A DNA stretch of 13,624 nucleotides from Magnetococcales bacterium (GTDB lineage: Bacteria > Pseudomonadota > Magnetococcia > Magnetococcales > JADFWU01), in assembly GCA_015234045.1 (NCBI GenBank), contig JADFWU010000066.1:1-13624 (forward strand), in the 5' to 3' direction. Position 1 is the stretch's first letter. Every line of letters starts with the position of its first letter. The translations under genes were made by a program, and so were the position numbers. Below are positions 5,764-11,448 of the stretch, piece after piece. Under the pieces are notes generated by a model, which had not been told where the DNA came from, made no database searches, and saw only the letters and a list, made by a program, of their open reading frames with translations.

Positions 5764-8700
5764 CTATTCTTTTTCGACCCTCTTCTCCTGAACTTTTTCC
5801 ACCTGCATCTTCTCCTCCTGAACCTTTTCCACCTGCATCTTCTCCTCCTGAACCTTTTCCACCTGTGTCTTCTCCTCCTGCACCTTCCCTTGCACCGCTC
5901 CCTGAAAAACCACAGACTCCTCAACAGACCGAATATGCAGATCCTGTTGTGGGAAGGGGATCTCTATGCCCTCTTTTTTGAACTCTCGGAAGATGCGGTC
6001 ATTCAGACGGTCACGGACGATATTACGCAAGTCGGGATTGGGTAGGAATACACGAACTTGGAAATCCAATGAACTCATTCCATAGTTCATGAAAAATATT
6101 TGCGGAGCAGGATCTTTGAGAACGCCCGATTGTGTACTGACCAAGTCGTTGAGAACACGGCGCACTTTGCCGATATCGCTGTTATAGGAGACACCAATCG
6201 GCATCATAATACGCAATATTGCATCGGAGCGTGTCCAGTTCACCACATCCTGAGTGATTAAGGTTCGGTTGGGAACGATGATCTCCTGACGGCTCATATT
6301 GCGCACTGTGGTCGCGCGGATGTTGATGTTGGTAACACGGGCCATCTCGCCTGAGGGACCGATGGAAATAGCATCACCCACACCGATAGGACGCTCAATC
6401 AGCAGGATAATACCACTGACAAAGTTCGCTACGATCTCCTGAAGACCAAAGCCCAACCCCACACTCATGGCTGCAACCAACCAACCAACTTTGCTGTAAT
6501 CCAAATGCAGGAAAGATAACGAAAAGATAAAGCCCACAATGAACAACGTGTAGCGCGTTATGGTCAGCACGGCATAGCGCATGCTCTGATCTTCGCGCAT
6601 GCGTGGATAGATCAACAACTCAAACAGCGTTGGCAGTTGACGCAAAAACCAGATGGTTACCGCCAGAGTGAGCAAGAAGAACATCAAATCCGCAACAGTG
6701 ACAAACAACACACCACCGCTGGCATCCGACACACTGAACAGCGCCTGTTGCTGAAGGGAGTCCAACGCCGCTTGATTAATACCCCAATAGCGGGCCAACA
6801 GCCAAAATCCAGTAAGGCTCAATACCATCCAGAGCAGATGACGCGCCTGCTTAAGCAGGCGGAAGCCTGCACCAGGATCACCGCCCACCTGTCCCAACGC
6901 CTTCCGAGTCAAATTGCGCCGAACAACCAGCCGTTGCACACCCGCCATCAGCAGGCGATAGATGCCGATCAAAGCAAACAGTGTCGCCAGAGAGAGCAGT
7001 CCATTGATGGCCAACCACTTTGCACCAAAGCGATATCCAGCCATATCCAAAACCAGCATCACCACCATGAACAGAATCAATATCCAGGAAATCTTCGGCC
7101 AGTGGCGATCCAACAAGCTGGCGGATTTCTGCGCCGCACCACTACTTTTACTGGCAAAGGCCCGACGAATCAGTGGCGAACCAGGCCTGATCACCTGGTA
7201 AATCGCCAGAATCAAAGCCCCTTCAAAGAGAGTAAAACCAAGGCGCGGCAGTGCTTCAAAGTTAAAGGGATGCTCCTGCAACACACTCCAAGGCAGTAGA
7301 AAAGAGAAATAACCCAATGATGCGACATTCAAACCGCTACGTAGCGTAGCAGCCATATCCTCTGGCATGTTGAAATGAACTTCCATGATGCCAGAGGGAC
7401 CAAACAGAAGCCGACTGAGAAACCAGATAGGAAAAAAGGCTGCAAAATGAAAGAATACACTCTCTGTAACCAAACCCAAATCACCGGGCAGATCTGAGGC
7501 ACCAAAGGTTAAACCAGCCATTACCAGATAGAGCGGGAAAAACAGTGATCCCACCACAGCCGCCACAACAACGATGAAACGACCGCCAAAACTTTCTCTC
7601 ACCGTTTCCCGATCATCGGCCCGCTGTTGAACCCACAGCTTGAGACGCTTGCGAAAATAGAGCAATAATGCAGGGAGCAATCCAAATAAAAAGGCTCCTT
7701 GTAGCAATGAAGAAGGTTCAATGATCAATGACCAGAGCCGTTTGACCATCTCTGTTGAAATGATCGACAACCACCAAGAGAGAATCGAAATACGCCCATC
7801 CAAAGAGAGCATTTCATCCAGAATGGTCAACAGGGTTTGAAATTGGTACGGCTGGGCATCCTGAATCCAGAAAATCCGTGAAAGCACCACCTGTTCCAGT
7901 CTATTCAGGGTTTTATTGCGCTCTTCAATCACCAATTCCAGTTTCTGAGCATCGGTCATCACATCGCGCAACAAGCGTCTTTCCTGACCGAGCAACTGAC
8001 GGTACTCTCTTTTTAATTTATCGCTTTTATCACCAAAGCGGCGCTCTTCTTCAACGGGCAGCGTTCGGATAATACGATCAATACTGCGCTTCCAATGACC
8101 TTCCAGGTTGAAAAGCAGATTGCCCACTTGAGCCAAACGGTCTTGATACTGGTTCAAAGTGCGGCGCATATCGCCTTTGAAGGCCAATTTCAGCGCTTTT
8201 CGACGCGGTTTAATACGACTGAAGGTATCCTTGAGCACTTCGGCCACCGGACCACGCGCTCCGGCCAGTTCCACCAGATTCTTTAAATTCAGCAGCTCCT
8301 CTTTTTCGCTCTTTGAAGTGGCTTCTTGTGATAGGGTCTCGGTGGCCAACTGAGCTTTAAAACGCTCCATATCTACCAGATTCGCTTGAACCCGTAACAC
8401 CTCGGCTTCTCGGTCATTGAGCAGGCGTTCCCAAGGATCCTGTGCTGTGAGAGCGTCTTTCTCCTTTTGTGCCAACGCCTTTTTATGTTCCTCAGCTTCA
8501 ACACTCTGCTGAACCTTCAACGCATCCTGATAGAGGGCGAAATAGTCTGCCTGACGTTGATGGCGCACCCGCGCCAACTCCAGTTCCCGTTCACGAAACG
8601 CACTGTGAGTGCGTTCGAAAGCCTCTTCGCGTTCCCAGAGCATTAATCGCTCTCGCGCCAAACGCACCAGTAGATGTGTATTGTCCAACTGCTGACGCAA

Positions 8701-9352: not shown

Positions 9353-9382
9353 TTGATCTTAGAGCTACGGAAAAAATATATT
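9353..9382 (+). promoter_or_regulatory. Weak candidate promoter of the ABC/M16 pair
   Basis: TTGATC (9353-9358), an 18-base spacer and TATATT (9377-9382) match sigma70 boxes at 4 of 6 and 5 of 6. The inverted repeat arm at 9364-9378 occupies the spacer. No other good pair was seen for this gene. Confidence 0.35.
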
Positions 9383-9416
9383 AATCCACTCCGAAATAAT
9401 CTATTTTTTCCGTAGC
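9364..9416. repeat. Perfect 15-base inverted repeat between divergent genes
   Basis: GCTACGGAAAAAATA (9364-9378) is exactly complementary to TATTTTTTCCGTAGC (9402-9416), with 23 bases between. It lies in the 119-base gap between the divergent channel and ABC genes. The left arm falls between the candidate -35 and -10 boxes of the ABC gene, so it could be an operator for a dimeric regulator. A hairpin in either leader RNA is the alternative. Confidence 0.75.
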
Positions 9417-9449: not shown

Positions 9450-10103
9450 ATGAGTATTGCGATTTTATCAGCCCATCAGCTAACTTGGCAAAGTCAATAT
9501 ATCACCTTTGGACCACTTGACCTGGAATTTAATGAAGGTGAGCGCATTGCCATTCTTGGTGAAGAGGCTTCTGGATTATCAACGCTTTTGCGTCTACTTT
9601 CTGGTCTTATCCAGCCAAAACAAGGCATAATAAACCTGCTTGGCAAATCATTGGCTACGGTAGACGATCGTCAGCGGGCGAACATGATAGGTGTGCTGTT
9701 TGATCACGTTGACCAACAGTTTCTAACCGCCACTGTGGGTGCGGAAATATCACTGGCACATCATGTTGAACTGGATTCAACCCGCAGTGCGGCCTATCTC
9801 TCTCAAGCAGGTCTGGCGCATATGGATTTGCAGCGCCCACTACACCAGTTAAGTGCCTCTGAACGATATCGCGTGGCTGTGGCATCCGTATTGGCAGCCA
9901 AACCGCGTATTATTCTGGCCGATGAACCGGGCTCTGCGCTATCGGATCACGGTGAACTCGAATTTGCTGATTCATTACGCGCTCTGTGTGACCGTACCGG
10001 TGTAACCATGGTGACCATGACAAGCCGGAAAAGTCGGGCAAAGTTATTTGGTGATCAAATAATTACATTGACAAAGGGCCGTATTAGGGATGAAGGCGTA
10101 TAG
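9450..10103 (+). CDS. Degenerate ABC-type ATPase domain protein
   Basis: 217 residues, a single ABC nucleotide-binding domain resembling the ATPases of energy-coupling and cobalt-type importers. Its motifs are eroded. Walker A reads GEEASGLST (37-45), with Leu43 where the lysine should be. The Q-loop glutamine position is Asp85 in LFDHVDQQF. The signature reads LSASE (134-138) instead of LSGGQ. The D-loop reads SALS (162-165). The switch histidine position is Met190 in VTM. Only Walker B is normal: IILADE with Asp158 and Glu159. The frame is intact for its whole length, so this is an expressed-looking pseudo-ATPase rather than a decayed gene. No permease lies nearby. There is no clear ribosome site before ATG 9450. 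Its stop is one base before the ATG of the M16 peptidase gene, so the two are probably translationally coupled. The function is unknown; a regulatory or scaffold role is inference. Confidence 0.85.
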   Translation: MSIAILSAHQLTWQSQYITFGPLDLEFNEGERIAILGEEASGLSTLLRLLSGLIQPKQGIINLLGKSLATVDDRQRANMIGVLFDHVDQQFLTATVGAEISLAHHVELDSTRSAAYLSQAGLAHMDLQRPLHQLSASERYRVAVASVLAAKPRIILADEPGSALSDHGELEFADSLRALCDRTGVTMVTMTSRKSRAKLFGDQIITLTKGRIRDEGV

Positions 10104-10104
10104 C

Positions 10105-11448
10105 ATGCAAGAAAACCACAACCATGCCGGGTCAGCCAAATATCAACAGTCTCAGATTGATCCTGTTACACTGCCCGAACCGGAACACCATCAGATCCCA
10201 TTGGATAATGGCTTAACCGTGCATGTTTTTCCCATGCCCTGGCGTCATGAGGTTGGTATTACTCTGTTGGTCAGAGCGGGCAGTCGCTTTGAAACAGCTG
10301 AAGATTCCGGCATTGCCCATTTTTTGGAACATATGATTTTTAAAGGAATCGAACGCATTCCAGACCCGACTGATCTGCACACCTATCTTGAAAGTCTGGG
10401 TGCGGATATGAACGCCTCCACCGGTCAGGAAACCAATGCCTATTGGGTCACCCTGCCACCAGAAAATATGCAGGAAGGGTTTTTGACGTTTTGTGAAATG
10501 TTCACCCATCCCGCTTTTTCAGATCTTCAAACTGAACGAAAAATCATTCTTTCAGAAATGCGTGAGGATGAAAACGATGAAGGCGAGGTGATCAACTCAT
10601 CCATTCTCAGCGCTCAAATGCTCTGGCCGGATCATCCCCTTGGTCGTCCTATTTTGGGCAGTCGTGAAAGCGTCAATGCGGTTACTGTAGAGAGTTTGCG
10701 TCGATTTTTAGAACAGTGCTATACCGGTTCCAACCTGGCAATCGCTTTTTTTGGTCCTGTCACACCAGATCACTGCGTGGCGCTGTGCAAACAGGCTTTG
10801 GGCGGTTTTCCTGCTGGATCACCGGCTGAACTCCAAACAGTACCCCCTTTCACATCCGGGCCACATTGGCAGGCGGTTAATGATCGCAATGCTCAGTTAT
10901 TACTGACACTTTCGTTTCGTACCGCTGGTTATCACGCACTTGAAAGGCATCTGCTATCTGCAATTCAACGGGTGTTGGATGATGGATTTGCCTCTCGTCT
11001 TCAGGCCAAACTTCGGGAAAAACAAGGCTTGGCCTATGAACTGTGGGCTGGTTACCAACCCTTTTCTGATACCGGTTCTTTTGAACTGGGTGCCTCCGTG
11101 GCACCGGATCAGTTGGAGGTTGTTTTTCACGCACTGCTTGAGCAGTTGAACCAACTGCATACCCATCCACCGGATGAAGCCGAATGGACACGGGTTCACA
11201 ATCGCTGGCGTTTTTCGCTGACCAGTGCGTTGGATCATCCTGGTAATCTACTGGAACGCTTTGTTTCTGATCCACTATTCAATGTGCAAGAGTCGTTCTC
11301 CTCTGCCTGGGATCACATCCGCCATCTCACGCCTGAGGATATCGCTCAAAGTGCCGCCCAGCTGTTTAAACCTGAAAATATGGTGGTTACCCTGGTTGGC
11401 TCCGGTGCAACAGACCGAATTGATCAACTCAAAAAGATGATCCCCTGA
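10105..11448 (+). CDS. M16-family zinc metallopeptidase
   Basis: 447 residues from ATG 10105. The inverted zinc motif HFLEH (His72, Glu75, His76) sits in DSGIAHFLEHMIFKG, and the third ligand Glu152 lies 76 residues after His76 in ILSEMREDEND, the spacing known for M16. A second lobe follows, with HPLGRPILGSRE (177-188) and the substrate-arm motif REKQGLAY (304-311). The length and single HxxEH fit the bacterial processing-peptidase-like subgroup, which resembles mitochondrial processing peptidase beta. No signal peptide is visible, so it is likely cytoplasmic. An earlier in-frame ATG at 10090 would overlap the ABC gene by 14 bases; I chose 10105 because GAAGG lies about nine bases upstream and the spacing is typical. 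Such peptidases cleave peptides in an enclosed chamber. The substrate is unknown. Confidence 0.92.
   Translation: MQENHNHAGSAKYQQSQIDPVTLPEPEHHQIPLDNGLTVHVFPMPWRHEVGITLLVRAGSRFETAEDSGIAHFLEHMIFKGIERIPDPTDLHTYLESLGADMNASTGQETNAYWVTLPPENMQEGFLTFCEMFTHPAFSDLQTERKIILSEMREDENDEGEVINSSILSAQMLWPDHPLGRPILGSRESVNAVTVESLRRFLEQCYTGSNLAIAFFGPVTPDHCVALCKQALGGFPAGSPAELQTVPPFTSGPHWQAVNDRNAQLLLTLSFRTAGYHALERHLLSAIQRVLDDGFASRLQAKLREKQGLAYELWAGYQPFSDTGSFELGASVAPDQLEVVFHALLEQLNQLHTHPPDEAEWTRVHNRWRFSLTSALDHPGNLLERFVSDPLFNVQESFSSAWDHIRHLTPEDIAQSAAQLFKPENMVVTLVGSGATDRIDQLKKMIP

Follow-up and report, generated by a model that had tools for sequence, protein, structure and literature searches.

Locus organization

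The window, i.e., the whole stretch of 13,624 nucleotides analysed here, belongs to the draft genome of a Magnetococcales bacterium (117 contigs; hereafter G000). We use the name dABC for the ABC ATPase-like gene at positions 9450–10103 and for its Magnetococcales family. The features considered below are listed in window coordinates.

9364–9416, no strand: strong inverted repeat 5' of dABC, between divergent genes, with CTACGGAAAAAATA arms (fold z-score -6.6)
9450–10103, forward: dABC, ABC ATPase-like gene of a Magnetococcales family (ORF, Pfam, alignment)
9558–9584, forward: Walker A, G-E-E-A-S-G-L43-S-T, carrying the family-wide Glu39 (alignment)
9702–9704, forward: Asp85, where the Q-loop Gln is expected (alignment)
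9744–9746, forward: Glu99, acid at the ECF ATPase position that docks the Arg of the T component (alignment; role from PMC6828968)
9849–9863, forward: signature LSASE, residues 134–138 (alignment)
9909–9926, forward: Walker B strand IILADE with Asp158-Glu159 intact (alignment, 30/30)
9942–9944, forward: Ser165 in the place of the D-loop Asp, SALS (alignment)
10023–10028, forward: Ser192-Arg193 in place of the switch His-Asp, THD to TSR (alignment)
10090–11448, forward: M16 peptidase gene with an HFLEH zinc motif, overlapping the dABC stop (ORF, Pfam; overlap read from the sequence)

The forward-strand open reading frame of dABC encodes 217 amino acids, contains no internal stops and matches Pfam ABC_tran (2e-22), in line with a preliminary description of this DNA that had reported an intact frame for an ABC-type domain. 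The AlphaFold2 model is a confidently predicted, complete ABC fold (mean pLDDT 93). Comparison in an alignment that held canonical ECF ATPases and the 29 other family sequences bore out Leu43 (codon TTA, 9576–9578), Asp85, LSASE, SALS and the surviving Walker B ILADE (residues 155–159), all of which had been pointed out before. The switch residue had been given as Met190; the alignment places it two residues on, at Ser192. Measured against a canonical hydrolytic ABC ATPase, the protein has the Walker B Asp-Glu and lacks the Walker A Lys, the switch His and LSGGQ. The statement that almost every catalytic motif is lost was overstated, as Asp158-Glu159 is intact. Directly after Asp85 follows a Q-helix remnant, HVDQQF (residues 86–91), which retains the D, Q and F of the motif.

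The M16 peptidase gene overlaps dABC by 14 bases, with an in-frame ATG also present at 10105, and its HxxEH motif is intact. On the other side, the CTACGGAAAAAATA inverted repeat is perfect and sits between dABC and a divergent mscK-like gene. At its C-terminal end, this MscK-like gene carries a tandem repeat (5781–5887; 30-base unit, 3.5 copies) that gives QVEKVQEEKM repeats. Elsewhere in the window, positions 401–949 encode a shikimate-kinase-fold protein, for which the best NCBIfam match was a homoserine kinase model, below its cut-off.

Distribution of the dABC family

A profile built from the first dABC orthologs (A1) was used to separate the family from other ABC proteins. It identified 30 full-length members in 29 genomes (two in G040) at 204–287 bits, with other ABC proteins of the order reaching at most 152 bits. 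Counting a C-terminal fragment in G009 that is cut at a contig edge directly 5' of the M16 gene, dABC was present in 30 of 48 Magnetococcales genomes. No match was detected at E 1e-46 among approximately 250 other genomes sampled across the phylum, and a scan with one peptide pattern (A3) placed no altered-switch member from outside Magnetococcales in the 31 matches with the highest scores. On the phylogenetic tree, all family members grouped together, apart from the canonical EcfA outgroups (support 100/100), and the nearest relatives of the window dABC were about 45% identical to it. Judging by these searches, the dABC family is known to date from magnetotactic-coccus-type bacteria alone. 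A limited literature search returned no published description of it.

Active-site motifs across the family

Motifs were counted on an alignment of the 30 full-length dABC sequences with canonical ECF ATPases. The switch His is replaced by Ser in all 30 sequences, and the next residue is Arg in 28. The Q-loop Gln is retained in five sequences and the second signature Gly in two. The D-loop Asp position is occupied by Ser in 20, Asp in eight and Ala in two. EPT has become EPG in 29 sequences, and all 30 have Glu39 at the Walker A position where both canonical outgroups carry Asn. Glu39, Gly161, Ser192 and Arg193 are new near-invariant active-site residues of the family. The Walker B Asp-Glu, with its invariant Glu159, and Glu99 are each present in 30 of 30 sequences. 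The Walker A Lys is retained in 28 of 30, with Leu found only in the window protein and that of G013.

The five changed motifs that had been treated as one pattern are thus of two kinds: changes at the switch, at the signature, at the Q-loop and, for the most part, at the D-loop run through the whole family, and K43L is confined to the window and G013. No orthologs with normal motifs, which would have pointed to error or decay in the window, were found, since the switch is altered in every full-length sequence. As read from the alignment, dABC is a family in which the firing residues are replaced and the docking residue and the ATP-binding core are retained. Because Lys43 persists in 28 of 30 sequences, most members, namely those bearing this residue, probably still bind ATP; comparison with other ABC proteins suggests that ATP hydrolysis would be impaired. 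The label pseudo-ATPase fits insofar as hydrolysis residues are altered family-wide, but in the strict sense it suits only G000 and G013, given the 28 sequences with Lys. The D-loop Asp reaches across to touch Ser/Asn in the Walker A of the other protomer, and an acid at position 39 together with the D-loop change from Asp to Ser would fit a rearranged yet dimeric interface.

Selection and the loss of Lys43

Pairwise dN/dS was 0.14–0.26 for six dABC ortholog pairs, values that describe the family and not the window's own branch and that include four most distant pairs with high dS. The other 26 dABC share 35 columns with at least 90% conservation, and the window protein retains 32 of these. 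The three exceptions (K43L, E98A, and A201G) are either unique to it or uncommon. The terminal branch of the window dABC was 0.81, compared with 0.82–1.13 for other isolated lineages. The marks of a pseudogene were not found: the frame of the window gene is unbroken, and the family dN/dS shows no relaxed selection. The earlier view that the gene is selected, and is not in recent decay, is supported by these values, and the dN/dS near one that would have spoken for decay was not seen in the six pairs. The alignment and dN/dS values indicate that most motif losses are ancient, shared throughout the family and subject to purifying selection, and that the loss of Lys is later and lineage-restricted.

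A sequencing error at codon 43 had been named as a possible explanation for Leu43. At least two base changes separate AAA or AAG from TTA (window) or TTG (G013), and a single base-call error is therefore excluded. The two Leu-bearing lineages were not grouped in either of the two trees. In the dABC tree, G013 paired with G001 (87/85); in the tree of M16 plus the T protein described below, its partner was G005 (82/89). When the window and G013 were forced into one clade, the dABC data did not reject it (p-AU 0.12), and M16 plus T gave a borderline value (0.054). By these phylogenies, Lys43 was likely, although not provably, lost twice independently, in the window lineage and in G013.

The M16 peptidase and other neighbours

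The M16 gene lies directly 3' of dABC in 12 genomes belonging to at least seven families. Among 41 genomes searched, M16 (E ≤ 1e-40) was detected in 26 of 26 with dABC, and the 12 genomes without M16 were all without dABC. dABC and the peptidase probably serve a common process. In some lineages dABC has been relocated: from a reading of the proteins, it lies beside sox-type genes in G010 and G023, and a SoxB-like gene stands between dABC and M16 in G003. A functional link to Sox was considered and rejected, as sox-type genes were seen near dABC in these three genomes only, by reading of the proteins. In G036 and G043, the synteny check revealed the fumarase neighbour without an adjoining dABC.

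Relationship to ECF ATPases

The best NCBIfam models for the window dABC were those of ECF ATPases (TIGR04520/TIGR04521), at 100–102 bits and hence below their cut-offs of 315–330. Among solved structures, the best single-domain match was EcfA (4huq_B, 148.5 bits), higher total scores being those of two-domain chains. The top Foldseek match was CbiO of CbiMQO (5x3x, TM 0.90), and PhnK was also among the best fold matches. Within the order, the genes of the next-best matches to dABC adjoin CbiQ. By sequence and predicted fold, dABC derives from ECF-type (EcfA/CbiO) ATPases.

In ECF ATPases, an acid in the first helix of the helical subdomain docks the Arg of the T component, and the Q-helix motif is X-P-[DE]-X-Q-hydrophobic (PMC6828968). 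The acid corresponds to the invariant Glu99. The Q-helix motif is partly retained across the family, with its Gln in only 3 of 30 sequences.

A candidate partner: the divergent EcfT/CbiQ-like T protein

A second profile (A2) describes a divergent CbiQ-like protein, here the T protein, that is distinct from canonical CbiQ. Of the 48 Magnetococcales genomes, 41 encode it; approximately 250 other genomes of the phylum yielded no match. In G000, the T gene occupies positions 1274–1984 of contig C35. When A2 was compared with the PDB, EcfT chains were the only meaningful matches (8.6e-22), aligned over nearly the whole length. The T protein is present in 28 of 30 dABC genomes. In 18 of these, G000 among them, no canonical CbiQ was found and the T protein was the only CbiQ-type protein, which therefore makes it the only candidate there.

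The coupling Arg of EcfT contacts the A subunit (PMC3246461, PMC6828968). Among 26 dABC genomes in which the second coupling Arg of the T protein could be read, 25 have a basic residue there. Five T proteins read from G002, G004, G012, G024 and G031, all of which are without dABC, have Gln or Leu instead. Four of these five form one clade, so that they represent one or two independent loss events. Co-occurrence of dABC and T was weak (Fisher test, p 0.086), because 13 genomes have a T protein without detected dABC. The coupling Arg is intact in five of the 13 (G030, G036, G042, G043, and G046), three of which are <80% complete. Distance co-variation between dABC and T beyond the species signal was also weak (mirror-tree, partial r 0.21), and the two genes were not adjacent in any genome examined.

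Searches for the S components BioY and CbiM revealed no BioY in the 48 genomes and no CbiM in G000. Biotin transport was accordingly rejected as a function, as was nickel or cobalt transport via CbiM, which is missing from G000 and many other dABC genomes despite the presence of larC after the T gene. This larC gene (nickel insertion, by reading) lies 3' of the T gene in eight genomes, which represent six families (G000, G001, G002, G003, G010, G013, G018, and G023). At the G000 locus (C35, 1244–3225), it overlaps the T gene. In genomes other than G000, a fimV-like gene often directly precedes the T gene. Lower-scoring CbiM-like proteins (E 1e-27 to 1e-32) occur in G007 (C20), G008 (C221), G016 (C50), G026 (C24), G039 (C39) and G040 (C30), all without a canonical CbiQ match. 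The T protein of G004 (C35, 21004–21726, L207) falls into the f13-type clade and is 58% identical to that of G031, and the M16 of G004 groups with that of G020; this suggests a horizontal replacement in a genome from which dABC is absent.

Proposed role and alternatives

With rather better than even confidence, we favour the reading that dABC is the diverged A-type (EcfA/CbiO-derived) subunit in an ECF-like pair that is specific to the order and encoded at separate loci, with hydrolysis slow or absent and the window version a nucleotide-independent scaffold. A dABC homodimer would sit on the unlinked EcfT/CbiQ-like membrane protein (contig C35 in G000) and act as an ATP-binding clamp, hydrolysing slowly or not at all. 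In the window lineage, where Lys43 is also gone, dABC may serve the T protein as a scaffold that needs no nucleotide, and the M16 peptidase is probably part of the same process as this pair. The regulatory or structural partner role that had been proposed for the gene is thereby sharpened: the unlinked T protein is the best candidate, alongside a strongly co-occurring M16. We think it rather unlikely that the ECF-derived A–T complex no longer transports and that dABC is a nucleotide-gated clamp (nucleotide-independent in two lineages) coupling the EcfT-like protein to the cytosolic M16.

Some of the same evidence could be read differently. The gene order shared by dABC and M16 in 12 genomes, their overlap in the window, a co-occurrence tighter than that of dABC with T, and the fold match to PhnK would all suit a soluble ABC protein that acts as an adaptor for M16, in the manner of PhnK or SufC, and never touches an EcfT-type membrane protein. 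Such an adaptor leaves unexplained, however, the invariant acid at the T-docking position, the ECF ancestry and the otherwise orphan EcfT-like protein in 28 of 30 dABC genomes, and we regard it as possible but doubtful. The near-invariant Glu39, Gly161, Ser192 and Arg193 and the invariant Glu159 would also suit a rebuilt catalytic site, in which case dABC would be a fully active, chemically unusual ATPase with Glu39, Arg193 or another family residue standing in for the switch. This appears quite improbable: replacement of Lys43 in G000 and G013, probably independent, would hardly be tolerable for an active enzyme, and changes of the H-loop and signature accompany loss of hydrolysis in degenerate ABC sites (PMC7756269).

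Heterodimeric ABC exporters commonly have degenerate sites (PMC7756269), and dABC might form half of such an NBD pair, with a canonical EcfA giving the single active site. Neither a second EcfA-type ATPase nor a canonical CbiQ was found in G000, however, and canonical EcfA elsewhere adjoins its own CbiQ and CbiM, so that we consider this very unlikely. Recent decay of the ATPase in the window lineage, to which the private or rare K43L, E98A and A201G could be ascribed, is already largely refuted and scarcely credible: the frame is intact and overlaps the next gene, conserved positions and family dN/dS are as given above, and the other changes of the window protein are common to its orthologs.

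An A dimer that hydrolyses ATP is the defining feature of ECF transporters. If the favoured reading of dABC as the A-type subunit of a split pair is true, this would be a natural ECF-type module in which ATP binding is separated from hydrolysis. The Lys-bearing and the two Leu-bearing dABC would offer a natural series for what each residue still does, and dABC would be a testable partner for the orphan EcfT-like genes of magnetotactic cocci, M. marinus MC-1 probably among them.

Comparison with known systems

The degenerate sites of heterodimeric ABC exporters (Pdr5, TAP, and ABCG5/G8) resemble dABC in that the Walker A Lys, signature and H-loop are replaced in a conserved protein. They differ in having a second canonical site, a canonical partner not being found in G000. 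EcfA/CbiO proteins are closest to dABC in sequence and fold. Both have an intact Walker B and the acid that docks T, and dABC retains part of the Q-helix motif. Unlike them, dABC has a Ser switch in all members, has mostly lost the Q-loop Gln and the signature Gly, has no linked T or S gene and is shorter at the C-terminus, with the Lys also gone in the window protein. The candidate T protein, for its part, is like EcfT/CbiQ in its two coupling-helix Arg motifs and in its only meaningful PDB matches. It is unlike them in that its gene lies after fimV and/or before larC and not beside an ATPase, and in that its first Arg motif is LR/RLG-like, not ARG/ARS. For the chloroplast ABCI10/ABCI12 module, we found no report of an altered switch in the ATPase; as an ECF-type A–T pair with no S component identified (PMC6828968), this module is like the proposed dABC pair.
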